64,000 nt of DNA from Paramacrobiotus metropolitanus (Eukaryota > Tardigrada > Eutardigrada > Parachela > Macrobiotidae), in the NCBI RefSeq assembly GCF_019649055.1, contig NW_026570236.1, forward strand, positions 1,488,001-1,552,000. The letters run 5' to 3'. The notes beneath the pieces were generated by a model that was not told the DNA's origin, made no database searches, and was given only the letters and a program-made list of their open reading frames with translations. Below, piece by piece: positions 13,204 to 34,544 of the stretch. Within the stretch, counting starts at the first letter, position 1. Each line of letters opens with the position of its first letter. The position numbers were made by a program, and so were the translations under genes.

Positions 13204-14202
13204 ATGGATGCAGTTGATTACATTATCTTACCAGACAGCGATTTTAATACAACGTTACACAATCGCACCGTCCCAGCGGTCACTTCCGAAAAAACTAGAC
13301 TTCTTTTGCTAGCCATTACTGGAATATCAGCTGTCATGGCGATCACCTTTAACAGCGCCATGTTTGTTGTGTTTTGCGTTAATCGCCATCTGTGGACGCC
13401 ATTCGATGTGTATTTTGTTAGTCTGCTGCTTTCCAACCTTTGCAAAATAATTAAGAGTCCTTTTGGGATGCTACGGGAAGTGCAGCCAAGCTTGTGGATT
13501 GGGATATCCGGCTGTATTATCTTCGTCGATGCAGTGTTTGTGTTTAATGCAATCCAAATGACCACCCATGCCTTCATCGCACTGAACCGAATCTGGGCTC
13601 TTACTGCACCCATGTCCTTTCGCAACTTCCACACATTTAGGTCGGCATATGCTATCATGGGCTCATTATGGCTGCTAGCGCATGGGGTTTTCGTTCCCTG
13701 TGCCTTCGTTTACGTTATCATCCGCCAGCCACATACTATCGAACGGTGCTTTATAAGTAACGATGACCTTTTAACTGCTTATATTCTTGAGATTATTAAC
13801 AAGTTTCTTGTGTGCATTTGTTCTATTATTTCGATGTTATCCGTGCCGGTCATCATTTGGAAACGTAATGTACTAGCTGCGGTAAAGAAAGAACTGGCAA
13901 ATGGACCGCCATCCCACAATGCGAAGAGACGACCGCGCAGTCAGCACGCGACGTCTGAACGACAGACATCTGTCTTGCTGTTACTATTTGCTGTCACTGC
14001 TTTGCTTTGTTGGGGACCGTTGGTCAGTTTTGCTGTTATTCGGAGGCCGACGATCTACTATAATCCGTTCGTTCAGAAATTTGTTTCTGCTATCTATGAC
14101 TGCCACGCGGTATTCGATCCCATTTTGCTGCTGTTAGCGTTACCGGTCTGGAGACAAAAAGCGCGTAGGTTGTTTTGTGTGTGGCCGGTACACAAGAGAT
14201 AA
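13204..14202 (+). CDS. Rhodopsin-like GPCR, type A, intact and intronless
   Basis: Complete 332-residue seven-helix receptor in one exon; ligand unknown. The ATG at 13204 is the first Met, and NTT and NRT sequons follow within 20 residues. Helix 1 spans about residues 33-57 and helix 2 contains FDVYFVSLLLSNLCK. Helix 3 ends in ALNRIWALTAPMSFR, replacing the D/ERY box. A Cys at about residue 101 (SGC) and one at ERCFIS could form the helix-3 to loop-2 disulphide. Helix 6 has CWGP and helix 7 has DPILLLLALP in place of NPxxY. Loop 3 is basic (KRRPRSQH). The frameshifted copy at 2500-3494 and the fragment at 27848-28207 are its paralogues. Absence of introns suggests either retrotransposition or old intron loss. 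Assignment to class A is by helix pattern, and the function is inferred. Confidence 0.88.
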   Translation: MDAVDYIILPDSDFNTTLHNRTVPAVTSEKTRLLLLAITGISAVMAITFNSAMFVVFCVNRHLWTPFDVYFVSLLLSNLCKIIKSPFGMLREVQPSLWIGISGCIIFVDAVFVFNAIQMTTHAFIALNRIWALTAPMSFRNFHTFRSAYAIMGSLWLLAHGVFVPCAFVYVIIRQPHTIERCFISNDDLLTAYILEIINKFLVCICSIISMLSVPVIIWKRNVLAAVKKELANGPPSHNAKRRPRSQHATSERQTSVLLLLFAVTALLCWGPLVSFAVIRRPTIYYNPFVQKFVSAIYDCHAVFDPILLLLALPVWRQKARRLFCVWPVHKR

Positions 14203-14976
14203 TTCGCGAATCATACTAAAATTCAAGAAGGCATCATATTTGCTATTCGTCCCGAGGTAACTGCTTTTATGCTTAATTGCAATAATTTCTGTTTATCGCA
14301 AACTGAACTGTTCTGACGATTTTCCGATGTTGCAAAAACGGCAATGTATGGCATTGTAGGATTGCGTACTCGTCGAAGCCCAGAAAGGGCTAAAGTGTGG
14401 AGCAAGGACAATCGATTTGTCTCTGTGCATTGTTTAATGAACCGACATTAATTGCGAAATCCATTTGTATATATCATGAAATGCATGCACTGCACAAACA
14501 CTGTTAACTTGCTAACGTTGTTCAAAGTATGAGATCATAGAGGTAGATCCTACAAGCCAACTGCTGCGTGTACTTCCGGGAAAGTAACAACATGCAATAA
14601 ACAGAAAAACGGGAGCGGCCTAAACACGAATTTGCTAGTAATGCAGATGCTACAAAGAGAAGCAGAGATTAGCTTTGTCGATTATCCAAGGAAAAGACTT
14701 TCTCGCACGAGAAGATGCGAAAAAGGAAGTACAGAAGAAGCATGTGCTGATCATTGCTCATTGCATATTTCGCCGCATGTGTTCACAACCAAATAAAATT
14801 AATTTTATTGAATGTCAAAGTTCGCCGTGTCACTCCGGCTTTGAGGTCAGGTTTTTGCAGTTCAATCGTTTTATCGCTGCAGTCGGTGCAAATTCGCAGC
14901 ACTTTTTAGATCGAAAACTAGAAGTTAGAAAAAACGAAACAGACTTTGCCAAAGCTTTTCCGTCTCTTGGAAAAAA
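14203..14976. other. Intergenic, no gene recognised
   Basis: Between the intact type A receptor and a ruined type B receptor. I see no frame worth calling. The last 50 bases resemble the upstream flank of the other type B receptors. Confidence 0.5.
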
Positions 14977-15529
14977 ATGGCGCATAATAACACTACCGAT
15001 AGCAATGCGACCCTATCCACTGGACAGATGGCTTATCACCGCATACAACATCTATCTCATAAACATTATGCTGTCGAGCTTGTCCACCTGGATCGTATGA
15101 AGTGCCTCGTGCTAGAATATGATCGCCCGAAAATTCCATCCTGACCACGGAATGTTCTGGTGCTCCACGGGCGTTCTAAGCGAATGGATCATCGCTCCAA
15201 CCGCCGGGTCGGCGAATATTTCAATGGCTCTTACTCAAACGTGGGCAGTGACTTTTCCTCTGTCGTACCGTGCTTAGCACAAAAAATGGGTGGCAAATAA
15301 CTGGTCGCCTTCTTTTGCACGCTTTAACAGTTTTAACCCTTCTGCAGCATTTTACTTTGACCTTCATGTCACAGGCGGGCATCGCCGGTTGTTGTGGGCT
15401 CTTACCCAAGTTGATGGTGGCGATAAGGTTAGCCTCCATGGCTAGTCTGACCATCATCTTTGGATCGCTGCCGTATGTGCTCATCATGAGACGCGTAAAG
15501 CACAGGCGCACTCAAGCCGCAACAGGTGA
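14977..15529 (+). pseudogene. Type B GPCR exon 1, deleted and frameshifted
   Basis: Relic of the type B receptor seen intact at 28887. The N-terminus MAHNNTTDSNATLSTGQMA matches its glycosylated start. About 30 codons covering helix 1 are then deleted. The alignment resumes at LITAYNIYLINIMLS near 15035. A stop follows WIV, and several further stops and indels interrupt the rest, although the DNA still aligns through WAVTFPLSYR, IIFGSLPYVLIMRR and the exon 1 end TCAAGCCGCAACAG|GTGAA at 15529. The helix-3 box has decayed to ALTQTWAV. No exon 2 (ARQ/ARH start) is found downstream. Non-functional. Confidence 0.8.
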
Positions 15530-17029
15530 ATCAAACTGTTTATTCATTGTGCCGATGTGCACAAATTTTATTCCAACTGGTTTTAGCTTGTCATGTAAAC
15601 TGTCGCACAAGTTTAAGATTTGCTTCGAGTAGGTTCATAATGATAAAGCTGCCGGATATCCTCGCGCGACTTTTCATTTTTGCGTCTGTTATCATTGGCC
15701 TCGCAGGAATTCTTAATTGTTTTCATTTGTGAACGTCAAAGGATTTTAAAAATCGACCGAAAAGACTATGAACTCAAAACACTTCGCCCGCTAAATCACC
15801 TATTCGTACACGGTCACACCAATATGAACGCACGGCATCGTGGATTTGGTCATTTTGGTGCCTCTTTGAGTATTGAGGATCAAACGTTGCTATATCCGTG
15901 TGAACTGTGTATCTTTCACCGTGGAGGACAGATCCGTGTGGGCATTCTACTGCTGATGTGAAGGTGTAGTACTTGCCTGCCGATTCGCCCAGCTACATGC
16001 AACTGCAAGTATCAGTTCGGCCGCGCTTTGCAGAAACCTTCAGAGGTAGTATAAAGATGGCAATGGGCGGCTGAAGTCCAGAACCGGTTACCTCAACACG
16101 GCTGGAACTCTCAGCTACTGTAAACTTGAAGGTCCAGTCGCCCGTATTGTATTATCGACCGGAACGCAGCGAAAGTCTTCTAACCCAGCCATAACGCAAA
16201 ACTGGATGTCTGTTTGTTACGGAAGTGCACCGGTGACGTCATCCTGGTTATCCAGTATGAGGTCACCTGTCTGAGCTGTCTCTACACAAAATTCCAGTTG
16301 TGTGGATGTCTGACTGTTAAGAAAGTACACTTATCATCATACGAGGCTATCCTGTATGATGGATCTATAATCTGAGTGTGGTCCAAGTCCGAGCTCGAGC
16401 GCGGGCCTTTCCAGTTTGGCTGAATTGCACTGAACGTAGCTGAACAGCGCGGGCCTTTCCAGTTTGGCTGAATTGCACTAAACGTAGCTGAACGTAATTT
16501 ACATACTTCTCAGCTACGGTCCGGTCTGCCAATGCGCACCAAGTGCGTTTTTCTTTTTCTAGTATACATTCTTATCAGCTACGGTCCAATACGCCAATGC
16601 ACACCAAGTGCATTTTTCTAGCTACAGTGCTGGCTGAAGACTACCCTGGCTCGGCGAACTGTAGCTTGCTGCAAGGACAATAAATTGTCACTTAATGTGC
16701 TTGTTATTACGCTGTTTAATACGCCGGCACTAATTGCGAAGCATGACATGAATGCATACGCTTCGTAACGCAGAGATGTTGTGCAGGGTATGAATAGGTA
16801 GATCATATGGGGCAATTGTTTTCGCGAAACGTAATTCCTGAAGAATATACAGTGATAAGAAAGCGGGAGCGGTCTGATCATGAATCTGTTAAGTGGAGCA
16901 AGTAATGCGGATGTTGACAAGAGGTCGAAACCAATTTTTGTCAATCATCCAAGGAAAATGCAACTTCGCACGAGTAGAGGCAATAATATTTGTAGGAAGT
17001 GTAGAATAAAACCTGAAAACACTGTATTA
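15530..17029. other. Repeat-rich spacer
   Basis: No gene recognised. From about 15950 to 16620 the sequence is unlike its surroundings in composition and carries two short direct duplications. A transposon at 17030 bounds it on the right. Confidence 0.5.
16399..16618. repeat. Two adjacent direct duplications
   Basis: A 48-bp unit beginning GCGCGGGCCTTTCC is repeated head to tail at 16399-16446 and 16447-16494 with about two differences. Next to it, a unit of about 44 bp beginning TCAGCTACGGTCC occurs at 16510 and again at 16575, roughly 90% identical. Both units share the GCTACG/GTAGC theme, so they may be the remnant of a larger transposon end. Confidence 0.75.
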
Positions 17030-18245
17030 GTAGCGCTCACCATTGAAGAATCTCGAGATTTTCAACGGACAAGAATCAATGACTAAAAAACTGCGATAAG
17101 GATAACCGTTGTGACTGGCCCATTTTTTGGTGATGCATGATTCTTGCCGTTTGTGATCACACCCACAATCTCGACAATACGCGTCCTCAATCACATCTGG
17201 CTTTCTTATCTCCGGTCTGGTTTTGTTTTGACCAGGATTATGATTCATAACATTCCGAACCGATCTGCTTTTTAACTGGTCGAAGGAAAGGTACGGCAAG
17301 CTTTACAAATACCCGCGTGAACAGCTCCGTTTTGCAAATACGGATCACGGCATCAGGCAGCAAGCATGAAAACAACAGTCTACTACGCACATACACATAC
17401 AGTACATATATAAGCGTCTAAATGAGCAATTAAAAACTAACCTGTTATCAGACCATTAGGTAATTTATCTACTTACGTTAATTATAATTACAGTTTACAC
17501 TGCGCTAATTAATTCATAAATATACTGTGCCATGTCGGCTGACATCGGTAAACGTTTCCAGTTTCATTCAGCGCCACAAAATGAACTGACACTTAATTAG
17601 CAACTGATCTGCTTAATTAGTTAATCGATCTGCTTAATTAATTAATTTTTGACAAAGGCGAAATCTTCTTCGCGAAAAATATCCCAGCGGCACATTCTTT
17701 AGAAAAGCGGTGCAAAACTCAAAATTCTTGAAGTATCATTTCCTGTTATTTCTCATTCCTTATCCCTTCGCTGCTCTCCGAGTCTCCGGTGCCGCTCATG
17801 CAAATCGTCTTACGATAAATGCATTTTACCGGTGATGCGTGATTAGTAAGCGTAGCATTCAAACATCTTTCGCATAAGTCCATCGGTATGTGTTGTTATT
17901 GGTTATTGCTTATCTCGTTGGACTTCGAACCAAAAAAATTGTTAAAGCAATACCAGGCTGGGAATGATAAAGCTGGATATGCTTGAGGTCTGCTAATATC
18001 GCGAATCAAATCGAATCTACTCCCGAGTAGATATTTCAGCCAAATCTCGATAATCCACGTACAATCCTAATACAAGCGCAACATGAACAACCACATTTAT
18101 CGGCACGTCTCACGATAAGCAGCCACATGAAAATGCATGAAACATGAATTACGTGCAGCTATTAAAAAGTTTTTTCGTGTGTCAGAGATTATTGTTTGGT
18201 TATAATCTCGCAGATCTACAGCCGTGTTTGATGGTGAGCGCTAAT
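17030..18245. mobile_element. DNA transposon, long copy, non-autonomous
   Basis: A 1,216-bp unit bounded by inverted termini GTAGCGCTCACCAT (left) and ATGGTGAGCGCTAAT (right), flanked on both sides by ATTA, a likely target-site duplication. It has no transposase frame, so it looks non-autonomous. The interior is AT-rich, including a TTAATTAATTA stretch near 17,600-17,650. A shorter copy in opposite orientation sits at 20893-21275 and matches both ends of this element, which confirms the boundaries independently. The superfamily cannot be named from the ends alone. Confidence 0.85.
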
Positions 18246-18394
18246 ATTACTACTTACAAGAAACCGCTGCGGCTTCGCCTCCGCGTTTCTTGTGATCCCG
18301 CGGCCGCTTTGAAATCATTCCACTTACAGTAATTCGTTAGTAAATTCACTAAATGCCTTAGCCGTTATTGTAGAACATCTTGGGCAAGGAGTCT

Positions 18395-19187
18395 AGCTCG
18401 GTCACTCACTCACCTAACGATTTTGTTCACTTTGGCGATTTATTGCTCGGTCATTACTCACCTAGATATTTTGTTCACTGGAGAGCGGTGGTAGCTCGGT
18501 CACTCACTCATCTAACAATTTTGTTCACTGGACAGCGGTGGTAGCTCGGTCACTCACTCATCTAACAATTTTGTTCACGGAACAGCGGTGGTAGCTCGGT
18601 CACTCACTCACCTAACGATTTTGTTCACTTCGGCGATTTATTGCTCGGTCATTACTCATCTAGATATTTTGTTCACTGGAGAGCGGTGGTAGCTCGGTCA
18701 CTCATTCATCTAGCAATTTTGTTCACTGGACAGTGGTGGTAGCTCGGTCACTCATTCATCTAACAATTTTGTTCACTGGACGGCGGTGGTAGCTCGGTCA
18801 CTTACTTATCTAGCAATTTTGTTCACTGGACAGTGGTGGTAGCTCGGTCACTCATACATCTAGCAATTTTGTTCACGGGACAGTGGTGGTAGCTCGGTCA
18901 CTCATTCATCTAACAATTTTGTTCACTGGACAGCGGTGGTAGCTCGGTCACTCATTCATCTAACAATTTGGTTCACTGGACGGCGGTGGTAGCTCGGTCA
19001 CTTACTTATCTAGCAATTTTGTTCACTGGACAGTGGTGGTAGCTCGGTCACTCATTCATCTAGCAATTTGTTCACTGGACAGTGGTGGTAGCTCGGTCAC
19101 TCATTCATCTAGCAATTTTGTTCACTGGACAGTGGTGGTAGACTGGTAGCAGGGTTACTCACTGCCCTAGCAGTTTTGTTCACTGGG
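18395..19187. repeat. 50-bp minisatellite, about 16 units
   Basis: Tandem array of a unit of about 50 bp reading AGCTCGGTCACTC, then a CATC/TAG segment, then AATTTTGTTCACTGGACAG and TGGTGGT. Units differ by a few substitutions. Two variant units near 18445 and 18643 read TTGCTCGGTCATTACTC and share the same changes, which indicates a two-unit higher-order duplication. The array fades out at about 19140-19187, where a last unit reads GACTGGTAGCAGGGTTACTC. No open frame runs through it, and it is not a CRISPR because there are no unique spacers. Confidence 0.92.
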
Positions 19188-19325
19188 TTTTGTTTCGTCG
19201 AAACCTGGGCTAATTCAAACTTTGGAAATCGAATTTTTTTAGGCATTTTAACACTGAACATTTGAACAGCAATCAGGCGATTAGAATTCAGCATGTTTGC
19301 AAATAAAATGACACACATTTATTAT

Positions 19326-19885
19326 AGTACATACAATGTACGACAAAAAGAGGTTGAACCGATCAGTCGGTCCGCGGTTCAAAATAACCTCGCAACGACA
19401 CGCCACCACTAAAACTTGGACGCTTACTCACTACTTTCAGACGCTCGCGCTCCGTGAATATCAAAGTGCAGCTATACTAGTTGCATATCAAAGGTGTAGA
19501 AAAAATTTTAAACTTTTGATACTAAACCTGTGGCTGTTTATGGCGAACAGCAAATTCTAGCCATTTTGCTTTCGTAGGCACAGCATAGGATCTGTGCGCA
19601 TAACCGTTTGGCTTGCAATCAATGCTTAAGTCTATGAGAAAGCAAAATGGTTAGAATTTGTGCTGTTCGCCATAAACACACAGGTTTAGTATCAAAAGTT
19701 TAAAATTTTTTCACACCTTTGATATGCAACCAGCATAGCTGCACTTTGATATTCACGGAGCGCGAGCGTCTGAAAGTATTGAGTAGGCGTCCAAGTTTTA
19801 GTGGTGGCGTGTCGTTGCGAGGTTATTTTGAACCGCGGACCGACTGATCGGTTCAACCTCTTTTTGTCGTACATTGTACTAAATA
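19326..19885. mobile_element. Foldback element 1, about 250-bp arms
   Basis: Long inverted repeat. The left arm (about 19326-19578) and right arm (about 19636-19885) are roughly 95% identical around a loop of about 60 bp. Each arm begins AGTACxxxCAATGTACGAC. The same 60-codon frame (MYDKKRLNRSVGPRFK) is therefore readable inward from both ends; I treat these frames as by-products of the repeat. The structure fits a foldback or MITE-like element, or a recent inverted duplication. It abuts the minisatellite. Confidence 0.85.
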
Positions 19886-20892
19886 CTTTTATTAAATGTT
19901 CTAAGCAACTGGCACTGCTGTTATTCTCAAGGTCACCTTGAAAGCTTTACCGAAGTCAGTTCGTCCCACCGATGCCGAAACCGGCATCGGTGGGACGGGT
20001 TTAAATAATTTTTTTTAAGAAATAAAATGCATGTGACACAGTTTCTGAACATGCTGAATCTAATGGCGTTTTCAGTTTTTTTTATTAGGTTCTGGTTTTT
20101 CCGATCTCGATGCATCAGTTTTTTTTGTAGTTATAATATAGATCTTATTCCTTGATAGGTCGAATTTTCGATGCATGTGGGGTTACACATAAAACCAATT
20201 GTATTAAATGCCAAGGTTCGCTGTGTTACTCCTTGGTTCGGTTAGGATACCTTGATGGTTTCGTTCACCCTTTTGATTGCTGGATTCATCGCGGATTCGG
20301 GTACATTGTAAACCTAACATGGTAAAAAATACAAACACAAGTTGCTGAAAATCTTCCATCTCTTGAAAAAGAATGAGACACAGTAATACTACTGGTGGCA
20401 GTTTTACCGAATCCGCTGGTGAAATGGCATTGGTATATGTTGGAGCGTTTGCGTCGTTCTTTGAAATCTTCAGCGAGATCATGATTGTCTCCGTGTTTCT
20501 ATCAACTAAGAGACTTATTACCGCATATAACATCTATCTTATTAACATTATGCTGTCCAGCCTATCCACCTGGATATTTCGGGGTGCCTCGTGCTGGAAC
20601 ACAATTGCCAACGGATTTCAGGCTGAGAGTGGCGTGTCTTGATGCGCCATAGACGTTCTAAACGAATGGATTATCGGTCCAGCAGCCGGGGCGGCGCACA
20701 TCCCACTGTCTCTTAATCGGATGTGGGCCGTGACTTTTCCTTTGTCATATCGTACGTACCACAATAAATGGGTGGCAATAGCTGGCTGTCTCCTTTTGCA
20801 TACCATAACCTTAGTAACTCGCCTCCCGCATTTTATTTTGAGTTTATTGTCCCATGCCGGCGCCAACGGCCACTGCGGGCTACGAATCATTA

Positions 20893-21275
20893 GTAGCGCT
20901 CACCATCAAACAGGGCTGTAGATCTGCGAGATTATAACCAAAACAATAATCTCTGACACATGAAAAAAATTTCCAATAGCTGCACGTAATTCATGATTCA
21001 TGCATTTTCATGTGGCAGCTTATCGTGAGACGTGCCGATAATTGTGGTAGCTGATGTTGCGCTGGTGTTGAATTGTATGTGGATTATCGAGATTTGGCTG
21101 AAACATCTACTCAAGAGTAGATATTTTGATTCGCGATATTGTCGAGATGTGCACAGACGGCAAAAATCATGCATCACCGAAAAACAGGCCAGTCACAAAG
21201 GTTATCCTTATCGCAGTTTTTTAGTCACAGATTCTTGGCCGTTGAAAATCTGATTCTTCAATGGTGAGCGCTAAC
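20893..21275. mobile_element. DNA transposon, short copy inside the GPCR
   Basis: A 383-bp internally deleted relative of the element at 17030-18245, in opposite orientation. Termini are GTAGCGCTCACCAT and ATGGTGAGCGCTAAC, with ATTA on both sides. Removing the insert and one ATTA restores the receptor reading frame across the site, which gives an empty-site reconstruction from the paralogues. The interior matches the two ends of the long copy and lacks about 830 bp of its middle. Confidence 0.9.
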
Positions 21276-21464
21276 ATTATCTTGCCAAAGCTGCTGGTAG
21301 CGATAAGAATGGTATCTATGGCTAGTCTGGTTATCATCTTCGGGTCGCTGCCGTTCGTGCTGATCATGAGACGACTAAAGCATAGACGGAACCAAGCCAC
21401 GACAGGTGAAATTTGACTTCCAATCTTTGTGCAACGATATACTCTTTTACCAATTGATGCTATG

Positions 21465-21560
21465 ACATAGTATCTGTATATCAGCATATTCCTATCTGTA
21501 TATCAGTATCTGTATATGTATCTGTATATATATCTGTATATGTATCTGTACAGTATCTGT
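21465..21560. repeat. ATCTGTAT-type short tandem repeat
   Basis: Imperfect repeats of TATCTGTATATC and TATCTGTATATG lie in what was the single intron of the ruined type B receptor. Simple repeat with no coding meaning. Confidence 0.8.
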
Positions 21561-21760
21561 CTATCAGCTATATTGATTCCTACACAGGATGTTTGACGTT
21601 GTTTTGCCACTTTTCATGGTTGCATCTGGCGTGTTTTCAGCTCGGCAGACCGTACCCCGATCGCTGTCAATTAGTGCCACCAAGGTCTACATTTTCTCCA
21701 CCATTGTCGTTTTCGTCCTATGGCTGCCAATTCCTGTAGCCATCATATTATTTCCATCAT

Positions 21761-22534
21761 GGCCATTACTTTTTACCTATCCATCCGATTTTTTTTCTGG
21801 TTACAGATTCGGAATCTGTTCGCTTTTATCTATATTTTGGTGTAAAGATTTGCCAAAAAGTGCTCCGGATATTTACGTTTGTGCCTTACGGCTTACAGAA
21901 CAGTAGTACACCAGTGAATTTCCACCCCATGCAGCTATACATTGAACTGTGCGCTCCGAATTTGAGTTCTTTTGTTAGGAATCTCTTATCGAAGGCCTCA
22001 TAAGCAAAAAGACTAATGAAGGGCACTAATTTGGAGTATAAACCAAAGTGGGTCTTCGAGTTCGAGGTCGCTGGCTCTCCAAATTTTTCAAGAGTTTAAA
22101 ATATTTTTTCGATAAATTTCGAAGCAGTGCCTTGATCTCGAAAGACTACCAAATTTTATGGCGTGAAATTCAGCTGGGATAAAGCAAAAACGGTTGGCGA
22201 CCTCCAAGTCTCCGCGACCTCGAACTCGGGAACCCACTTTAATTTATATTTGTAATTTGTCCCCTTCATAAATTTTCCCTCTAATTCGGCTTAGATAATG
22301 GGGTCTTTACAAAAAAAATCGAAATTCAGAGCGAAAAGCTCAATATACAGCTGCATGGGGTGGAAGTTTACTGGTTTACTACTGTTCTGTAAGGCACAAA
22401 TGTAAATTTTTCCCCGGGCAAAATGTCCCGAGCACTTTTTGGCAAATCTTTGCGCCAAAATATAGATAAAAACGAGCAGATTCCGAATCTGTAACCAGAA
22501 AAAAAATCGGATGGATAGGTAAAAAGTAATGGCC
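21761..22534. mobile_element. Foldback element 2 in GPCR exon 2
   Basis: Imperfect inverted repeat with termini GGCCATTACTTTTTACC (left) and its complement at the right end (22518-22534). The arms reach about 300 bp and diverge inward, with several small indels. The right arm is the source of the minus-strand open frame seen from 22291. It interrupts the receptor directly after the FPSW codons. No clear target duplication is visible. It is unrelated in sequence to foldback element 1. Confidence 0.8.
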
Positions 22535-23084
22535 GTTGCCGGTCTCAAAAAATACCATAATCCGCCCCTGGAACTTAAATAAAGAAAGGCGCTTTTGTCT
22601 ATAGTACTAATGGTATTTCTTTGTATACTCATACCGGTATCGGTTGAGTTGCTCGCTCTCCCTGTGCTTTTACTTATGAATGGATATTGTGCCATGATAA
22701 AGTAACATATAATATCACAATAACAAAGTGACGCATTAATGTAACAGAAATGGTAAGAAACAAGTCATAATAAAGTGTGCGCTGCTTTGAATTCGTCAAA
22801 GTAAACAATGTAATCGTACACTTATAAGTATAAGGGGTTGACAGTTGCTTAGCCAAACACTCCCTGTACTGAAGTCCCTCCCTGTTCTTGGCAACCCTTG
22901 TTACCGTCAGCCAGCAGGTGTTTACGTTGTGGCTAAACATGGCGCTTATGTACCGCGCCCGCTTTAACCATATGTACGAGCAACTGTCAACCCCTTTATT
23001 TCAGCTATAGCATTATTATACATGGGGCTCGTCGTGTGACCTTTATACAAAACGAGACACTGCATAGTTCAGTCTCGCGGTCTC
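22535..23084. other. Spacer, no gene recognised
   Basis: No homologue of receptor exon 2 resumes after the foldback element, so the 3' part of the gene is lost. No coding frame is supported. Confidence 0.5.
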
Positions 23085-23545
23085 GGCGGCCACCTTATCG
23101 TCTTGGAGATGAACATTTTTGCCTGTGTTCCTGCAGCTTTACTCTCTGTTTATCCGCAATGATTCCCTAGTCACGGCCATCACATCGCCCACTACTGATT
23201 CTGGACGACGGAAAACCGGCGAGTTAACTCGGTACGCTTCTACGTTAGACTATCGTTTCTCGTAATCGTTGTGTCGGTACGACACACGGGACGACTGACT
23301 GCCAGAGAATTAACGGCTGAAGACGAGGAAGACGATGATTAAGTTTTTTTAGACGAGAGTTCCTGCTTGTGAGTGATTTCGACTACTTTAAGAATGGAAC
23401 ATGGATCTGCGCTCCATGCTCTTGCCGTGGGGTTTGGCTTTGGAATCTTTCCATTTTTTGCTACAGGGTAGTATGAGCATGAGCGATAAAGGGAGCGGAT
23501 AAAACCGTATGACAGCGAATCAAATTAGCCTTGTCTACAACCACA
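23085..23545 (-). pseudogene. Decayed fragment of the BTB gene 3' end, copy 1
   Basis: The DNA aligns with the last exon of the BTB gene and its upstream intron (about 31410-31890). Shared landmarks in the same order include TCTTGGAGATGA, ATCCGCAATGA, a GACGAGGAAGACGATGATT stretch, GAGTTCCTGCTTGTGAGTGATTTC, GCGCTCCATGCTCTTGCCG, GGGTAGTATG and TAGCCTTGTCTA. Many indels and stops break the frame. It lies about 1.3 kb downstream of a type B receptor relic, the same spacing as the real BTB gene from the receptor at 28887. Confidence 0.75.
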
Positions 23546-24469
23546 AGGATAGCGACATACAGGCAACAGCGTACAAATATGCTGCTTGTTGAATTCCAAC
23601 GTTCCGTCCCAGGTCAGAGTAAGATATGCAATTAAGAACCATTGAAATTGGAAGCATATGGGCTATATACTGTACGTAGATAGCATCAGTTACTCGAGCA
23701 GTTATCCAGTCACACCGATACAGAAGTAGAAGAGCATACCATTTGCAAAACACGCGGCTTTCCCCACAAACGTTGACTCTATTACTCACAGCAGAAAGGT
23801 CGACTACACAACGTAATTTACCAGCTATTCGTGCACGGTGGAAAGCGTAATCAAATTGTTTTTAATTGAAAAGAAAAGAAAAGAAAATGAAAATGTACAA
23901 CTGCCATCTGGGTTAGTTAACCAGAACATGAACCCCGGCAATGGCGGAGCAGCGACCTTTAGTTATTGTCTTACTGCCAACGATATTGACACTATGATAC
24001 TACGGTGGAGCTGCGCAGGCGAATTGTTGCAACGCTCATTTTACAGGAAAATTACTTTCTCAGTCCTCATCTCCGGAATTGTAGCAACATTGAACTGCAG
24101 TGGCGTAATCATTCCGGGAAGTTTAGCGGCTAATGTAGATGCTGACAATTAAAAGATCGAATTTGATTTTGCGGCTTCTCTCTACGGGGGAAACTCATTA
24201 CTCGGTTTCACATGAGTAAGCGCTGCAACCGGAAGTACAGAAAGTATCTGCCTCTGCTCTACAATATGTTGCTCATCCGTTGCATTTTCGCGCTTTTTGA
24301 ACGGTATCACTCGATCGACAATTCTATATTAATGTTCGCTGCGAAATCTCGATGAACTTGTTAGATTTTCGCTACTTAAGCCTCTTATTTTAAGAATTAT
24401 AAAACCCAGAAAGTGTAAAAAATATCGGAAATAGGTTCCTAAAGCCTTTCAATTGTCTCCAGATAAGAA
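23546..24469. other. Spacer upstream of type B GPCR
   Basis: A 104-codon plus-strand frame at 23838-24152 starts with ATG (MESVIKLFLIEKKRK), but it has no recognisable domain, splice context or paralogue in the window. I leave it uncalled. Confidence 0.4.
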
Positions 24470-25996
24470 ATGATTCGCAATAATACCACTACTGGCAATG
24501 ATACCGCATCCACCAGTAAGGCTGCTTTGGTGTACATCGGAGCAATAATTCCGATTTTTCAAATCTCATGTGAGATCATAATTATCTCTGTGTTTCTTTC
24601 GACTAAAAGGCTTATTACCGCTTACAACATCTACCTCCTAAATATTATGCTGTCACAGATGCTTTCTTGGATTGTTGGGTGTGCCACATACTGGAGCATG
24701 GTTGTGAGCGGATTACAAGCTGACCGCGGCATGTTCTGGTGCGCTATGGACGTTCTAAATGAATGGATCCTCGGTCCAGCTGCCGGGGCGGCGCACATTC
24801 CACTGGCTCTAAATCGGATGTGGGCCGTGACTTTTCCCCTTGTGTACCGCACTTATCACAAAAAATGGGTGGCAGTAACGAGCTGTCTTCTTCTCCACGC
24901 CGTAACCGTCGTAACTCGTCTCCCGCATTTTGTTTTGACTTTGTTATCTCAGGCGGGCAACGGCGGTCGCTGTGGGCTGAAATTCAATATCTTGCCAAAG
25001 TTAATGGTAGCAATTAGGATGGTTTCCTTGGCTAGTCTCGTTATTATCTTTGGATCGCTGCCGTATGTGTTGATCGTGCGGCGTATAAAGCTTAGGCGTA
25101 CTCAAGCCGCGACAGGTATGATTTCATAAAGTTTCCCCATGCATCAAGGGGTACTGCATTTTACGGGCTTTGGATGTATGTTTTTGGTTATAAGCGTAGC
25201 TGTACGTTTTTATGATTACGTAGTGCGAGTTATAAACCATGACAAGCAGCCAGTCACGAGGAAACAACATGTACAGCCTAAATGGAAAGCGCTACAGCGC
25301 ATCCGCCTTTGATTTTAAGCAGCAATTTTTCCTAAAAAATTGAAAGTGATCGATAATTTTTGATCCACTCCTTTGGGTTGCCTTGTGCTAAAGATCGTTT
25401 TACGTAGGCGGTTGGTTCAGCTGTGCTTCCCATATTGTAGGTTCTAAGATCCAAGTTACAATAGAATTAGTTAATTAGTCAGTTAGACGTATGTACTATA
25501 TCACTAATCCACAGAAGCATTACGCTTGTTTATTGACTTTCATAATATCATACAGGCTCTAGTTTTCCTGCAAGTATGTACTTGCTGATAGAGTTGACGG
25601 TTAATGTGTTCGATGTATTACGTAATTGCCAAACTTGTCATTGGTGCATGAGTTGCATTTTCAGCTCGGCATACCGTTTCCGGATCCCTGTCCATGAGTG
25701 CTAACCAGGTTTTCATGGTCTCCACCGCTGTCGATTTCATCCTTTGGCTGTCTGTTCCTGTATCGGCCTTAATTTTTCCATCTTGGACTACTCTGTACCA
25801 GTGGGCCCAACTTGTAGTAGGCTCCCTAGGAGCTATAATTGACTCGATTACGTTTGCTCTTTTCGCGCCTCTCGCAGGGGATATATTTTATGCAAAACTG
25901 AACAGGGTTCTTCGTTGGTTTAGTGCTTTGGCGCCAAAATCGCGTCAAGTAGATTCTGTGCGAATAACAGCTGTAAGCATTGAAATGAAACAGTAA
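24470..25996 (+). CDS. Rhodopsin-like GPCR, type B, two exons
   Basis: Intact 325-residue seven-helix receptor. Exon 1 is 24470-25115 and ends GCGACAG|GTATGA in phase 1. Exon 2 is 25665-25996 and starts after TTTTCAG with CTCGGCAT, giving ARHTV across the junction. The ATG at 24470 gives MIRNNTTTGND, matching the N-terminus of its paralogue at 28887. Helix 2 contains ITAYNIYLLNIMLS, and helix 3 ends in ALNRMWAVTFPLVYR, replacing D/ERY. Helix 6 carries WLSVP, and helix 7 has DSITF in place of NPxxY. A Cys in the helix-3 region (FWCAMD) and one in loop 2 (GRCGLK) could pair. Ligand and coupling are unknown. It is the middle member of three tandem units of type B receptor plus BTB sequence. Confidence 0.88.
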
Positions 25997-27239
25997 CTGG
26001 AGTTAAGGGCTGATTAACATATTTCGAAAGCCTCAAAGGATGACGATTGTATCATTAGACAATAGTACTGACCTTTCCAAACTGTGGATTGTAAAGAAGG
26101 CAATATTCCCCGCTTTCTTACTGCTACCGCTGTACTGTACTGTTTCGCTGGTGTTGATAGTATAGGTGTAGAAGCCCCTCCAGTACTATTCGACTGCATA
26201 CTTGCTATTCGACCCCTTTTTAAAGCGTATGACTCGCAGCTGAGTTCCAAAGTGTAGAGAATTTATTGTTCTGCAATTTACTATCTTATGATTGTGTGGA
26301 GAAAATCTAAAGATACGAATTTTACGAAGTGGTTTTCTGACCTGTACAAATCGCAATCGTCAGTTCACAACTCCGTCTCTCGCCGGATACCATTGCAGTG
26401 CCCATGTTTCGAAAGGTGATTTTGCCTTGTACTGTCAAAACAATAGTAGTGCAAGTGTTTCACTTACGCTACTGAACTGTCAACACTGCAAAAAGTGGAG
26501 AAAGTTCCGTAGTATGGCTGTTTGACTGTCTGCAGTAGGCTGTACCCAGTTTAACATCAAACCTAACAACGAATTAAATTACCAAGTTCAAGCTGTATGC
26601 CGCGCGACACCCTTTTGATTCGGTATCTCTTTGCACTGTTGTAAAGCAAGTTGCACTGAGCAGATCCGAAGCAAGTAAAAACATAAGAAAGTAAACGAGA
26701 ACATAAAAAACAAATATTAACGCCTGCTTTTAAGCATGCTAAGAAGCACTCTAAGGACAGTTTCACCTACTCTGTACTTCCAGATCTTAAGAGCGCTGAA
26801 TGCACGGGTTTCTGTGGTTGATTTCTAATGTTTTTATTGCAGTTTTTTATTTAACAAACTGAAGCTGATAATTGCAAAAATAATTATCTGAGTAATTAAT
26901 TCAATCTAAAGATTCTGACCTAATCACTGAATATTGGTCGACAGGTCGACAACACCTGTCATTGTGTATACTCGGTAGTAGTAGTACTACTACCGACTAC
27001 CGAATATACAAAATGTAGCTTCCCATATCGCTTTTGTCACTGGCACTGTACCCATTTGTTATAGCTTCTGGTGATTTTTATATCGAAAGATGTATCATGT
27101 AGACAAGTTGATTTTATAAACCATATGGGTATCGTTTGCACAACTCGTACATAAAGTTTCCCCGCTTTGGCAACAAGGTGTAATAAACCAGCCATCTCAG
27201 ATGATGTTGCCATAGCGTTTTTCTTTTGAGTTTTCGCAG
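25997..27239. other. Spacer between GPCR B and BTB fragment
   Basis: About 1.24 kb, nearly the same length as the spacer at 30068-31325 in the next unit, but little sequence identity is visible by eye. It contains the short hairpin at 26973-26995. No gene is supported. Confidence 0.5.
26973..26995. repeat. Short perfect hairpin, 11-bp arms
   Basis: CGGTAGTAGTA, one central G, then TACTACTACCG. A second small hairpin, GACAGGT...ACCTGTC, lies about 25 bases upstream. Confidence 0.85.
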
Positions 27240-27840
27240 AGTTTTCATATTTCAGCTGTAACATTGTTATTGAGGAGACCATCACAATGCCGTTTAACGT
27301 TTAACCCGTGGCAAAGCACTTAGGGGGTCCGATATCGACCGGCCACGGGCTCGGTGACTACTGTATTTTGTCGTCTTAAGGAGGATCCCAGAAAAACAGT
27401 TTCTGCCATTTCCCACAACATTTTTGACATTCCCTTTTCCGGAACAAACTGCTCCCGAGAGGGAATAGATTGTTTAATTAAAGCTGAGCGTCACAATCTC
27501 ACCGTCTTATTGTTCCTTGTTACCTTTGTGTTAGCTGATCACACGGACGGCTGACTTTCAGGTAAGGGAATAATGACATAATTTCCTGCTTGATGGAGAA
27601 TTTCGGCGAGCCCGTCGGATGACCCGCTGGATTTAATTGCTCGGTACTCTTGCCGTGGGGTTTGGCTTTACAGTCCTAGCCGGGTATTGCAAAGGTATAA
27701 TATATGATATTTTGCAGAGGTACAGATACGGTATGTCAATGAGTTTGGGCGATACAAGGACTGCTGGGAACGAAGCATCCATTAACCGCGTAAAACGCTA
27801 ACAAACACGTTTTGCCGGTAATTCGTCCACTACTGTTGCG
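27240..27840 (-). pseudogene. Decayed fragment of the BTB gene 3' end, copy 2
   Basis: Aligns colinearly with about 31320-32090 of the BTB gene. Shared stretches include TTTCATATTTCAGCT just before the stop region, CCGATATCG, TGAGCGTCACA, TTGTTACCTTTGTGT, CTCTTGCCGTGGGGTTTGGCTTT, GGGAACGAAGC and TTTTGCCGGTAATTCGTC. It therefore covers parent exons 4 to 6 with their introns, but it is shortened and full of stops. Because introns are included, it arose by DNA duplication and not by retrotransposition. It lies about 1.24 kb after the type B receptor ending at 25996. Confidence 0.75.
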
Positions 27841-27847
27841 CGAGTGT

Positions 27848-28207
27848 CACTAGCTGCGGCAAAAGAACTGACAAATGGAGCAGCATCCAACAACGGAGGA
27901 TAGATACTATAGATATTGGGTACCACTCAGTCACCATCTGAAAGACACACATACATCTTACTGTTACTATTTGCCGTCGATGCTGTCAGTCTCAGGGACC
28001 GTGGTCATTTTTGTAAGTTTCGTTATTATTATAAGACCAATGGATTACTTTGATCCGTTCGTTAGAAAACTTGCTTTCGCGATCTACATGTACAAACATG
28101 TATCTGTACGAGTATGACTAAAACACGGTGTTCGATGCTGCTTTGTTGCTACTGACGCCGCCAGTTTGGAGGGAAAAGCGCACAGTTTGGGTTTCCGTGG
28201 TCGGTAG
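27848..28207 (+). pseudogene. C-terminal fragment of a type A GPCR
   Basis: The DNA aligns with about 13868-14202, the third loop through helix 7 of the intact type A receptor: CTAGCTGCGG..AAAGAACTG, TTACTGTTACTATTTGCCGTC, TTGATCCGTTCGTTAGAAAAC and GTGTTCGATGC. Stops and frameshifts occur throughout. The breakpoint to the BTB fragment is abrupt at about 27845. No N-terminal half is present, so a truncated duplicate was joined here. Confidence 0.75.
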
Positions 28208-28209
28208 AT

Positions 28210-28886
28210 AAATAATAATCCGTAAAAAATAAAAGCCGTCATACCTGTTTTGCTTTCAGAAATCGCTGAAAATCGTTAAAACCGTTGTTACGCTTGATGC
28301 GGACTTCCTTATACGCTGTCTAATAATCCGACACTAATCGACATGCAACGCCCCAAACATGCTGTGAAGGCATCCATTGCACAAACATTATTTCCTACCA
28401 AACCTTGTTCAAAGAATGGAGGAACTCAAATGGCGAGGTGCCCTTGTACTTCGTGCAACGCTCCTTGCAGCTGATCAACTGTCTTTGCAGATTTTACACT
28501 CAGAACAGTTAGAGCATAAGCAGGCGTGGCCGGATCACGATTCTGCTAAATCAAGCGAGTACTGCACATTGTCGAGGGGATCAAGAATTTGCTTTGCCAA
28601 TCCAAGTGGAAGATATTATTCCAGGAAGGTATTCATCGAAGGTATACAGTAATCGGAAGTATTTGGTAAAGAAACCGTACATAATAGTGCTGACTCATCT
28701 GCATGCTTTTATGGATAGGTTGCAGTGTTCGTTGCCTCGCTGCATTATTCTTACTAGGTTTCTCCATTTTTACTAGGTTCATCCTTGGCACTGGATTGAT
28801 TTTATATTGCCCTGTAGAGCCAAAAACGTATTTTTTAAAAACATATCGAAGACGAAAGTCGCTCAAGCCTTCCAGATCCCCGAGAA
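28210..28886. other. Upstream flank of type B GPCR
   Basis: No gene recognised. It lies between the type A fragment and the next intact type B receptor and should include that gene's promoter; I cannot point to a specific element. Confidence 0.4.
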
Positions 28887-30067
28887 ATGATGATTCGCAA
28901 TAATACCACTACGAGTAATAACGGTAATGAAACCGAATCCACTGCTCAGATGAGTTTGGCATACATTGGAGCGGTTGCGTCGTTCTTCGAGATCTTCTGT
29001 GAGATTACGATTGTCTCCGTGTTTCTGTCGACCAAAAGACTGATTACCGCATATAATATCTATCTCATCAACATTATGCTGTCAGACTTACTTATCTGGA
29101 TCGTTCGGTGTGCCACGTGCTGGAACATGGTCATCCATGGGTTCCGAGCTAACCGCGGTATGTTCTGGTGCGCCATGGACATTCTGAATGAATGGATTAT
29201 CTCTCCCGACGCCGGGGCAGCTCACATCCCGCTGGCTCTCAATCGCATGTGGGCAGTGACTTTTCCTCTGTCGTATCGCACTTATCACAAGAAATGGGGA
29301 GCAATAACTGGCTGTATTCTTCTGCATGTTGTGACCGTGGTAACTCGTCTGCCGCATTTTGTGTTAAACATGTTGTTGCACACCGGCGACAGCGGCCACT
29401 GTGGGTTAATAACCAATGTTCTGCCAAAACTGCTGGCGCTGATAAGAATGGTCTCCATGTCCAGTCTGGTAATCATATTTGGATCGCTGCCGTATGTGCT
29501 GATCATGCGACGTTTAAAGCGTAGACGCGTTCAAGCCGCGACAGGTGAATTAAATCCACTGTCTCCATTCATTGTGTATCGGTTTCACATGTTTTACAGA
29601 TTTTTCGCTTAATGTTAAACAGTCCTTGGCGGAAACACTTACAATATAATGAAACAAAATGTAATGTCCATTTTTGAACGGCAGGCAACTTCAGTGTATC
29701 AGTTCTCAGTATTGTCTTTGTGGTATTTTTAGCTCGGCAGGCTGCGCCCAGATCCTTGGCAGTTAGTGCTAACAAGGTCTACGTTGTATCCACCACTTTC
29801 AGTTTCATCATGTGGCTGCCAATAACTGTGTCGACCATGTTATTTCCATCTTGGAATACGCTGTACCAGAGCACCGTACTCTTTGGCGCCCTGGGGTCGG
29901 CAATCCACTCCGTCACGTGTGCTCTTTACGCGCCCCTCGCACGGGATATATTTTCTGGAAAACTCTGCAGTTTTTTGTCTTTGTTTGTCATTTTGGCGCC
30001 AAAACCGCGCAAAATAAATGCCGAGAATACAAATGAAACAACAGCTAAAACCCGCGGCCACCAGTAG
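28887..30067 (+). CDS. Rhodopsin-like GPCR, type B, two exons
   Basis: Intact 330-residue receptor and the best-preserved type B member. Exon 1 is 28887-29544 (ends GCGACAG|GTGAAT, phase 1). Exon 2 is 29733-30067 (starts after TATTTTTAG with CTCGGCAG, giving ARQAAP). Two adjacent ATGs (28887, 28890) are possible; the paralogue at 24470 aligns with the second. The N-terminus has an NTT sequon. Helix 2 contains ITAYNIYLINIMLS, helix 3 ends ALNRMWAVTFPLSYR, helix 6 has WLPITV, and the helix-7 region reads IHSVTCALYAPLARDIF in place of NPxxY. It is followed after 1.26 kb by the complete BTB gene, the arrangement from which the two upstream units appear to have been copied. Function is unknown beyond probable G-protein signalling. 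Confidence 0.88.
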
Positions 30068-31325
30068 TCGCGGAGATCGAAGAAAATGCATGCTTCACAC
30101 TTTGCTGGATATACTTTGAATCAGTTTGATTGCATACGGTGACCCGTAACCACTGCATCATGCAACTCCTAAATAAACTATTAACTGCAGGTCGCGCTGC
30201 AGTACTGATTCTTGACACTGTTGGCAATTTACGGTTTTCTTTGCAGTAGACGTATACGCAACAAAAAAATTATTTACACGAATGCAAAGGTACAAATGTA
30301 GAAGTGCAGCAAATTATTTAAACGTATTTACTCAGAACATAATCAGTCATACCCTTATGGTTAGCCGATATTAACCATCTTATCAGGAATACTGCTTATA
30401 AACAGTCTTACGAGAAACAGAAAACACATACCGCCGTTGGTCTGACATACAGTTGTTTCTGAGCCCCGATATTGCACGCTGCAAGTTCAAATGGAAGCTG
30501 AAAGGGCCGCCCTGAGGGATGAATCTGCAGTTATGTACCAGTTACATACCAGTTTGTTTACCAGTTACGTACGAATGCTGCTTAGTACGAGGCCTGATTT
30601 TCTCGACTTTTCATTCACGCATCCGGACGGTGTGGCCCTTTGAATGCTCATATCCCAAAAGGATGGTGACTCACACCATCTCAATTCTGGACTTCCGGTA
30701 GCACCAAGTAGGTCGAAACCAACACGATCAGAAACTAGACCCGTTTTCACTCACATAGCCAAAAAGTTTTGTTAAAAAATTATTTCTTTGAAATTTGTTA
30801 CTGAATTAATAAGGTCACTTCTGGTGTGAGTAACCGTGCTAGTAGACGATAGTGAGCGATAATTACAGGTTCCATGTTTCTTTTCTTGTCCTTTCATGAT
30901 ATAAACCGTAAAGCACCAAATTACAATTTTCTGACCTCTTAAAACGGATAGAAGTTAACGTGCTACAGAGTACAGGCTACAGTATATCACTCTGCAGTTG
31001 TTCCGTGAACATCCTCACTGAATATGTATTGGCCGATAATTCTGGCACTTCGTATGCGATTGTGATTCTCCTATCGATTTCGAGCGGAAAATTGGCATTC
31101 TGTATTGTATAAAAGGGGTAGGTGTATGCATGTATCGTATCACATAAACAATGACACATCGTAGTAACAGAAACAATGGCTACTGTAAAATATAAAGCAA
31201 AGTGGGATCGATGAGATCGCCACTCACGAAAACAAACATACTTTTAACAACACAATGTGGTAGAAAATAATTCTAAATGACACTGGCCTACCGCTTTCCC
31301 GTTTTTCTCGAAGAGAACATTAATT
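30068..31325. other. Intergenic, 3' flanks of GPCR and BTB gene
   Basis: Convergent ends of two genes. No coding frame is supported. Confidence 0.5.
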
Positions 31326-34300
31326 TCATATTTCAGCTATAACATCGTTATTCGCGGGGACTGCTGCATGACCTTTCGCACGGGGCGGTGCACTGGGGCG
31401 CCCGATATCGGCCGGCGGTCGTTCCGGCGACCATTTCATTGTCTTGGAGATGATGCCGGGAAAACCGTTTTTCCCTTTCTTCCCCACATCTTTACTCTCC
31501 CGTTTGTCCGCAATAACGACCATTCCATCATCCACCACGGATTTTGGCCGATGGGGAATAGGCGGTTTATCACGGAGCGTCACATTGACTGCGCTATCGT
31601 CTCTCGTGACCTTTGTGTCGGTGGGACGCGCGGGACGCTTTACCGCTGGAGAACTGGCGGCCGAGGACGAAGAAGAGGAAGACGACGATTTCTTAGACGT
31701 AAGTTCCTGCTTCTGCATGATTTCGGCCAGGGACGTTTCGCTGGGTTTGCGCTCCATGCTCTTGCCGCGTTGTTTGGCTTTGGATTCCTTTCCCTTTTTC
31801 TGCGGGGGTAGTATGTGTGTATGAGCGATACAGGGATTGGCATACTGTATGGTACTGAGCCAGGCTAACCTTGTCTAGGGCGAAACGCTGGCGCAGCTTG
31901 TCGACGAAGTTGGAATTGTCCGGCTGCTCTTTGATTACCATGTATGGGCCATCGGAACTTTGGGAACGAAGCGGCCTAACAGCACGCGAATTACCGTTTT
32001 ATTAGTGTTAGAATTACCGAATAACTTTGCAGCTATTTTATCAGCGTAGTACGTACAAGTGCATTTTTGCCGGCAATTCGTCGACTGATACTTCGGTGTA
32101 ACCGGGTGGCGGTTTGGAATAGAACACAGATTCTCCATTAGCTGCAAGTAATGCTAGTCTTGAAAATTGTAATAATTTTATCATCACATATATTAAATCA
32201 TTAACATCTGTTGCCTCCTCATTCTGTCGAAATAAAACTAAACATACAGATAATTCGCATAAAATTAATATGATACATATGCCAGTTAAAGTAAACAACA
32301 TGTTGACACTGACTATGTTGCGTTCGCGTCTTGGGAACGAATGCTACTCTTAAGGTGGCAGCTGGCAACTGGCAAGACGATAACGAAGCAAAAGTCTGCA
32401 GCAAAACTTACCGGGTTTTGCCGGTACCGGCTTTGGTTGTACAATTGGAACGCCATTAACCGGCGGAGCAGGTGGCGCTTCCAGCGGCTGCGATACGGCG
32501 GTTATTGGGAATTTCGGTGATGGCTTCACTTCGTTGGATTTGATTTCTGCAAACACCGCGTCGTGAGTCAATGTTTGACCTGTCACATATACAATGGTAC
32601 TAATCAAACGTACTTTGCTTCATGCCACGCGGTTTCATGGTGAATTCGCCCAAATTCTTGGTCTGATCCAACAAGTAATAACTCACAATCAACTGCTCAT
32701 GTTCCGTGAACACCCCGCTGTTCTTCACCAATCCGGCCAGGTTCTCCTTAGGAATGGACACCAGACGGAAGTCCCGGATAAATGACTCCATGGTCCTCCT
32801 GACCTTTGGTTTCTGCAGTTCGAAATCCGCGGTTTGTTTCTTCTTCTTCTCTTCTTTGTTTTTCTTTTCTTTCTTTTCATCATCGCTGGACGAACTGCTA
32901 CTGCTGCTGCTGCTGGATGACCTTTCCTTGGGTTCCCGCAGATTCGCCCATTCCAGTACGCGCGCAAATACCGCCGCTTCGGTGATTCCACTAAAGCTAT
33001 CTAGAGCTAAGAGCTTCTTAATAAAATTTTCCGATACCCGTACGAACAGCGGATCCATGACGACGAGATCGGTGGTGTCCTGGATAATGTCGAAACAGGG
33101 TTTCTCCAGATCCGTGATCCCCAGATCCAGCGCGCGCTGCGTGAGCATGATGAAGTGCCGCGGACGAAAGTGCGGAAGGCGTTGAAGGAGGAGATCTTTC
33201 ATGATATCGTACAGGTAGTGCATATCGTAGGTATGGGCCGCGTGTAAGAGATGCACAGCCTCTAGAACGCGTTGGGGAGGGCGGAGCTTACCGGTATAGG
33301 TGTATTGGATGATGGTGTGAAAGATTTCCGGTGAAGTATCTATAAATCGCACCTTTTTGGGTTATAAAGATTTTTTAATAAGATTTTCTACACTACTTGA
33401 AGAATGTATCAATGATAAATTTGTTATCGAAGCGGTCTGTTTCTGCGTAGTACTTATACAATTAATTGCAAATTAATTTAATTAAATGTGTAAATGTTTG
33501 CGGAATTTTGAAACTGCAGTATACTAAGCCAGGCAAGTGTGGATACATGCGCCGATTGGCCGATATCAATCTGTAAGCTACTCGCTGCATTATTGAGTTA
33601 CAGAAAAAAATTTTGACGCCACCCGATCCTTGGAGGTGTATAAAGGGTACGTATTGATATTATAGTGCACAAGCGTTAGAACTACCGCCTCATTTGCCGC
33701 CAACGTACAGAGTATATAGAAGCCCTTTTACTACGATTGCAACGGCGAGTGATTATAATTCGTGTATTTCGAAGTACCCATCATCCCATTCAAGATTAAT
33801 CCCGGATTTATCTACGCAAAAACAAATTGTAAAAACAGCTGCGCTGGCGCAGTTATGAGAAACATTAAAGTGACTACCGGGAATAACGGGTCTATTGTCA
33901 GACTGTTAACAGTCGGGTTTTTGATTTCTGTCAGCTTCTCTGCGTGCGTGATAATTTACTGTTCGACGACAACTTAACTGTGAAATCTAAACAAAATATC
34001 CAAACCTAAGAAATATTTTTGAATATTTTATTAAGTACGTTCTGTACAGATAAGTGTGAAAATATTCAAATTTAAAATAGTAACTTCTCATTCAAACCTG
34101 CTACACCTGTTTTATATTAAAGCGGGAAGTATACAATACCGTACGTTCAACACACAGGGAATTTTTAGATTTCTTTTCGAATTTTTTACGTCTTCCATAG
34201 ATAAAAAGTGTACTTACAGTACGTATGCGAATGCACTTACCGGCTATGGTTATTTCATCATCACGTTCGTGTTCTTTTAAAATCTTGGCGAACGTCGCGC

Positions 34301-34544
34301 TCCGTGTAGCCAGTATCAGCCGGTGCGCTTTGATACGACTGACATTATCCCCGTTTCCCACGATAAAAAGAACATCCTTATATCCCTCTAACGCCTCATC
34401 ATCCAGCAACGCCCGTAGCCACACGCGTAAATCCGTCTGCTCGTTAATATCTCCGGCCGGCGTTTCCACAGAATCTTTGCGAAACAGCACTGCATATTTG
34501 CCATTATAATCGATCTCTCCATCAAAAAATTCTTCGTCTTGCAT
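31326..34544 (-). CDS. BTB-BACK domain protein, six exons
   Basis: Predicted 620-residue protein with an N-terminal BTB/POZ domain (self-association, often a CUL3 adaptor) and a BACK domain, but no Kelch repeats. Exons: 34544-34241, 33339-32614, 32579-32412, 32141-32057, 31975-31870, 31799-31326; phases agree throughout. The ATG at 34544 starts MQDEEFFDGEIDY. BTB landmarks are DVLFIVG, KAHRLILATRSATF and DTSPEIFHTIIQYTYTG (about residues 55-125). BACK contains MDPLFVRVSENFIKKLLALD and AAVFARVLEWA. A low-complexity tract of Ser, then Glu/Lys, then Pro follows (ERSSSS...DDEKKEKK, EAPPAPPV). The last exon repeats a Ser tract and ends basic and Pro-rich. The donor of exon 5 (AAG|GTTAGC) is the weakest site. 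Two decayed copies of its 3' half lie at 23.1 and 27.2 kb. Confidence 0.85.

Follow-up and report, generated by a model that had tools for sequence, protein, structure and literature searches.

Birth-and-death evolution is a general model for receptor gene clusters. Two published observations are also close to the locus described here. Tandem duplications with breakpoints inside genes are described in Drosophila yakuba (PMC5460883), and the protein clusters described as tardigrade-only include 18 clusters of G-protein coupled receptors (PMC5531438). We analyzed an array of receptor gene copies in the tardigrade Paramacrobiotus metropolitanus (RefSeq assembly GCF_019649055.1), located in a stretch of 64,000 nucleotides of contig NW_026570236.1 (positions 1,488,001 to 1,552,000), hereafter the window. 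The array consists of copies of a receptor gene, type B, flanked by a type-A receptor gene and by a gene with BTB and BACK domains (the BTB gene), and it very probably arose when a segment was duplicated in tandem and the copies then underwent birth-and-death evolution. Such a history is ordinary in kind, and its details are well preserved here. As in birth-and-death receptor clusters, linked copies are partly intact and partly dead and close copies occur on another contig; the copies here are rhodopsin-class by Pfam and reach the cut-off of no named chemoreceptor family. As in the D. yakuba duplications, segment ends within genes left altered or partial gene structures at a junction, whereas the boundary pieces here (BTB on the minus strand, A on the plus strand) point away from the junction and are old and decayed. 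The receptors may resemble the tardigrade-only clusters in being lineage-specific. Among the papers listed by literature searches, none names this locus in its title or the start of its abstract, which is no proof of absence.

Four type-B receptor copies, denoted B0 to B3, are arranged head to tail between 15.0 and 30.1 kb of the window. Three of them form units with sequence of the BTB gene: U1 (B1 and the relic btb1), U2 (B2 and the relic btb2), and U3 (B3 and the intact BTB gene). We compared the whole window with itself and then ran a more sensitive comparison over 14.0-35.2 kb. Chance matches were assessed with dinucleotide shuffles of the compared stretches (n = 100 or 200) and, as a second control, with unrelated real sequence from the same window; searches of the genome covered 169.8 Mb. 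The B1, B2, and B3 units formed colinear diagonals, so that adjacent copies in the same orientation are colinear over more than one gene, as in a segmental tandem duplication. An earlier reading made from the sequence alone (the sequence-only reading) had proposed a tandem triplication of genomic DNA, in which the 3' half of a BTB gene on the minus strand comes after each receptor, and had pointed to a self dot-plot as the check. The duplication of genomic DNA was borne out by the colinear receptor and BTB diagonals, with the BTB similarity at 23.1 and 27.2 kb included, and by the two relics, whose scores were reached by 0/100 shuffles each. The arrangement stood for B1, B2, and B3, but the fourth receptor copy, B0 (15021-15655), precedes them, and what the relics contain is the final two to three exons of a gene with six, not half of it.

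The relic btb1 (22997-23598) matched 31329-31940 of the BTB gene at 65-66% identity with a score of 1001 (best of 100 shuffles, 125), and btb2 (27243-27743) matched 31324-31859 at 60% with a score of 543 (best of 100 shuffles, 124; 0/128 real controls, best 124). A further piece of btb2, 27769-27831, matched exon 4 and intron 4 sequence at 32023-32086 (score 118, 0/200 shuffles, 0/128 controls), and a competing placement of 27743-27813 on 31942-32000 in exon 5 was weaker (score 92, 4/200 shuffles). The relics span about 0.6-0.76 kb, at most about a quarter of the 3.2 kb gene, and contain neither domain. In the intact gene, whose six exons were assigned by eye, both domains are in exons 1-2 (BTB, 27.0 bits in exon 2 and 27.4 in the exon 1 frame, cut-off 20.5; BACK, 30.2 bits, cut-off 20.9). 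Introns were also said to be included in the BTB copies. Intron 5 is present in btb1 (0/200 shuffles, 0/130 real controls), and 37/76 columns of btb2 agree with the BTB intron, which is weak taken alone. Because intron content is retained, the relics are copies of genomic DNA. A processed retrocopy was ruled out by intron 5 in btb1, by the separate matches of receptor exons 1 and 2 in B1, and by the GT/AG intron in B2 and B3. Since the copies have diverged, an assembly duplicate is very unlikely.

The boundary between U2 and U3, at ~27813-27843, is a junction uniting both ends of the duplicated segment. It can be placed within ~12-30 bases because the BTB match stops at 27831 (or 27813) and the match to the type-A receptor begins at 27843. 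The A relic (27843-28226) matched 13867-14210 with a score of 503, against maxima of 177 in 100 shuffles and 146 in 98 real controls. As the BTB and A pieces read outward in opposite directions, there is no chimeric gene at the junction. DNA from between A and B is repeated upstream of B1, B2, and B3, and in unit 1 repeats at 17.0-20.1 kb lie between it and B1. One alignment of U2 with U3 covers receptor exon 2 and extends into the BTB piece (25620-27743 to 29688-31859, 54.9%). Homology of the U2 and U3 3' flanks was supported in part, with 4/200 shuffles before the dispersed repeat of U3 and 0/200 after it; the match of 26836-27241 to 30920-31315 (score 172) was above all 200 shuffles (maximum 169) and all 128 controls (maximum 168) by a narrow margin. 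The breakpoints of the units can be called the same only loosely: on the BTB side, btb1 can be matched as far as 31940 and btb2 as far as 32000-32086, and the A side was located at the U2/U3 junction only. Two other candidates for A relics were rejected. One in 23500-24380 was borderline (3/100 shuffles against A; 2/100 against the U2/U3 junction), and its best alignments (24027-24349 and 23963-24339) lie where the intergenic match is better; for the other, upstream of B1, 28/100, 19/200, 166/200, and 23/200 shuffles reached the scores.

To characterize the receptors, we compared their state, family, and rates of change. Exon 1 identity was 74.6% for B1-B2, 76.9% for B1-B3, and 74.9% for B2-B3 (477-657 columns, self-comparison). 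Both B2 and B3 are intact; each has two exons and GT/AG borders, and they are 325 and 329 codons long, respectively. Together with C59a, an intact copy on another contig, they exceeded the Pfam 7tm_1 (PF00001) cut-off of 30.5 bits (B2 38.6, B3 47.7, C59a 36.6), and none of the three reached the cut-off of 23.8 bits for the chemoreceptor family Srx (PF10328; 16.1, 16.6, and 14.2). By Pfam, receptor B is thus predicted to be rhodopsin-class, and no named chemoreceptor family is assigned by cut-off. In exon 1, the ratio of nonsynonymous (dN) to synonymous (dS) divergence between B2 and B3 was 0.17, which indicates constraint. The dS of receptor pairs was 0.81-0.95, with 0.81 for B1-B2 (interval 0.57-1.15). 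For B1-B3, dN was 0.18 at a dS of 0.84; by arithmetic, drift of B1 since the split would push the dN of its own branch toward 0.4, half of dS. B1 therefore seems, from these rates, to have been under constraint for long, and at present a stop codon and a mobile element interrupt it. The element probably inserted long after the duplications, since the best other copy of the element is 94% identical and the receptors have dS values of 0.81-0.95. Exon 2 (25665-25996 vs 29733-30067) had a dN/dS of 0.81 (interval 0.53-1.24), its protein changing far faster than that of exon 1. The intron is longer in B2 (0.55 kb) and C59a (0.53 kb) than in B3 (0.19 kb).

The BTB part has decayed in both upstream units, and the receptor survives in U2 but has died in U1, as the sequence-only reading had proposed. 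Both relics carry insertions or deletions relative to the BTB gene that are not divisible by three. In 395 three-way columns, relic-specific changes were flat over codon positions (btb1 24/26/20, p 0.67; btb2 24/24/24, p 1.0), as would be expected under unconstrained decay, and the columns charged to BTB together with those differing in all three were distributed 11/16/33 (p 0.001). In exon 6, btb1 and btb2 differ at 172/395 sites, or ~0.65 substitutions per site by Jukes-Cantor arithmetic. This value falls inside the dS interval of B1-B2, so the ages of relics and receptors are compatible. In our reading, the relics may have decayed from birth, while selection probably maintained the receptors over a long time. 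Boundary pieces that were dead from the start give dates for the duplications that do not depend on the receptors, and they serve as a reference for how long each receptor remained under selection.

The ancestral order would have been a type-A receptor and a type-B receptor, both on the plus strand, followed by the BTB gene on the minus strand. A segment reaching from inside A (about codon 222) to about exon 4, within the 3' part of the BTB gene, would have been duplicated head to tail, giving A-B-btb'-A'-B-BTB, in which the inner copies of both end genes were truncated at birth. This first duplication is backed by the U2/U3 junction. Later rounds, probably by unequal exchange between units, would have led to the present array; their number, order, and mechanism we infer from the copies that remain. 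The truncated ends, being functionless, would have drifted, and complete receptors would have been kept for a time: B2 and B3 would still be kept, B1 would have died late, and B0 would be a remnant that may once have belonged to a similar unit.

Table 1 Features of the receptor array and its surroundings (positions in the window).
Feature	Position	Strand	Details
Type-A rhodopsin-class receptor, intact	13180..14202	+	Pfam 7tm_1 61.2 bits, cut-off 30.5; duplicated segment has its left end in the 3' part
B0, receptor B copy, decayed and limited to the exon 1 region	15021..15655	+	69-71% to B2 and B3; stops, frame shift
A-B intergenic homology of unit 1	16541..17009	+	score 408; 0/100 shuffles; 0/128 real controls
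Dispersed repeats and tandem array between unit 1 A-B flank and B1	17010..20148	.	copies across genome; 50-base tandem array 18394-19141
B1, dead receptor B copy	20373..21794	+	in-frame TGA 20640-20642
Mobile-element insert in B1 exon 1	~20885..21285	.	18/28 genome matches fall here; best outside copy 94%
Inverted-repeat element, 0.78 kb, cutting B1 exon 2 and 3' flank	21761..22536	.	self-inverted match
btb1, BTB gene relic (exon 6, intron 5, exon 5 in part)	22997..23598	-	score 1001; 0/100 shuffles; z 77.5
A-B intergenic homology upstream of B2	23965..24388	+	score 206; 0/200 shuffles, z 6.5; 0/128 real controls
B2, intact receptor B	24470..25996	+	exons 24470-25115 and 25665-25996; GT/AG splice; 325 amino acids
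btb2, BTB gene relic (exons 5-6, probably into exon 4)	27243..27831	-	0/100 shuffles; z 37.4
U2/U3 junction, BTB (~32000-32086) fused to A (~13867)	~27813..27843	.	ends of BTB and A matches
Relic of type-A receptor 3' part	27843..28231	+	0/100 shuffles; z 22.5; tblastn
A-B intergenic homology upstream of B3	28306..28875	+	score 309; 0/100 shuffles; z 12.5
B3, intact receptor B	28887..30067	+	329 amino acids from 28890; donor GT at 29545; exon 2 from 29733
Dispersed repeat, 0.3 kb, 3' flank of B3	30557..30854	.	36/38 genome matches
BTB-BACK gene, intact, six exons, donor of relics	31326..34544	-	Pfam BTB and BACK

The search of the genome gave at least 150 receptor B matches (869 candidates, 150 scored). 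Two close copies were found on contig C59: C59a, which is intact (324 amino acids), and C59b, which has three stops. We constructed trees from 13 DNA rows and 12 protein rows, in which the B1 row stops at the insert and B0 is absent from the protein tree. C59a was sister to B2 with support of 95/97 (DNA) and 99/98 (protein), and the two share 68% identity over 1694 columns, intron included; the placement of B0, B1, and B3 was not resolved. A BTB piece was not detected at C59a (142/200 shuffles and 73/74 real controls reach the score) or at C59b (65/200 shuffles). The six close receptor copies thus comprise two with a BTB relic, one beside the intact gene, and three (B0, C59a, and C59b) without detectable BTB sequence, where a very decayed piece could be missed. 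The sequence-only reading had held that the receptor family expands by dragging a truncated neighbour along. This is unsupported, because no BTB piece was detected at three of the six close copies and the closest relative of B2 is on another contig. On these comparisons, the family seems able to grow without carrying BTB sequence along.

A possible alternative, compatible with segmental duplication, is that the recurring unit consists of receptor B and its upstream DNA as far as the 3' end of A, with BTB sequence caught only in rounds that took place next to the BTB gene and with copies, such as C59a, also leaving the array. The sister position of C59a to B2 fits this, as does the match of C59b to the A-B intergenic DNA upstream (0/200 shuffles, 0/128 controls), but C59b has no visible A coding relic (87/200 and 150/200 shuffles). 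C59a contains a 51-column match to the 3' end of A at 80% (0/200 shuffles, 0/130 controls) and matched A itself with a score of 175 (0/200 shuffles, maximum 172). It also matched the upstream flank of unit 3 with a score of 229 (0/200 shuffles), which is weaker than it appears as the top of 98 real controls was 227. Against this, its direct match to the A-B intergenic DNA was weaker (3/200 shuffles), its match to the A relic of U3 was not significant (27/200 shuffles), and the common flank may be B's own upstream region and not part of A. More doubtful is the fuller proposal that the 3' end of A with a whole type-B receptor would be the unit of growth in the array and on the other contig alike, the common upstream DNA being kept as B's control region and the BTB end being a bystander.

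Several results weigh against segmental tandem duplication with subsequent birth and death, or against parts of it. The U1/U2 boundary (23599-23964) matched neither BTB (42/200 shuffles), A (58/200), nor the A relic of U3 (143/200), and no other copy of it was found in the genome. The 3' flanks of U1 and U2 showed no homology (44/200 shuffles reach the score), and those of U1 and U3 had 0/200 shuffles, yet 3/128 real controls reached the score. In the trees, B2 grouped with C59a on the other contig and not with its array neighbours B1 or B3. No exon 2 was found downstream of B0 (152/200 shuffles reach the score), and a candidate BTB relic after B0 was rejected (35/100 shuffles and 29/90 real controls reach the score). 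On the side of constraint, the changes of B1 by codon position (11/7/14) were not different from flat (p 0.31), and neither were the columns charged to BTB alone (7/12/11, p 0.50).

The BTB pieces could also have been inserted separately, by mobile-element capture or ectopic repair, beside existing receptor copies. Repeats are common around the units and the U1/U2 junction is not readable, both of which would fit such insertions. We consider them unlikely, as the orientation, the part of the gene, and the side of the receptor are all identical twice, and as one U2-U3 alignment takes in both receptor exon 2 and the BTB piece, with a match also in the 3' flank that directly precedes this piece. 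In addition, no copy of the BTB end was found outside the array in the genome, although decayed copies could escape, since two of these searches missed btb2 too. That the pieces were retained for a function, such as RNA interfering with the BTB transcript or a spacer between receptors, is very improbable: two pieces persist, but their frame-breaking insertions or deletions, equal change at all codon positions, and divergence inside the interval of receptor synonymous sites speak against it, and in the orientation of the donor gene they could give antisense only from a transcript of the other strand.

Gaps of about 1.25 kb between receptor and BTB piece had been noted as equal in the three units; they do look alike, but this is partly coincidence, as the gap in U1 contains the inverted-repeat element and that in U3 the dispersed repeat. 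Regular unit spacing judged by eye can come from unrelated insertions, which is a warning for similar arrays. Between the unit 1 flank and B1, a nested insertion at 17031-18246 is a copy of the mobile element of B1 into which other dispersed repeats have in turn inserted at ~17174-18005. A palindromic element at 19332-19878 is 91% identical between its own strands and has copies in many places of the genome.

Exon 2 of the BTB gene had no sequence relative among solved structures at E 0.01, and one weaker relative in the genome, on contig C11 (8 candidates scored). The base composition of the window was 38-52% guanine plus cytosine per 2 kb, mostly 40-45%. Two open reading frames of the region left of the array had no Pfam match at E 0.01. 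The same region holds an older, second tandem duplication, in which 2510-11005 matches 116-8384 of the stretch L003 (C16:1479000-1488000) with identities of 54-65% and equal orientation, one instance being 4309-7308 against L003 116-3097 at 55%. This duplication adjoins two further minus-strand copies of the type-A receptor.

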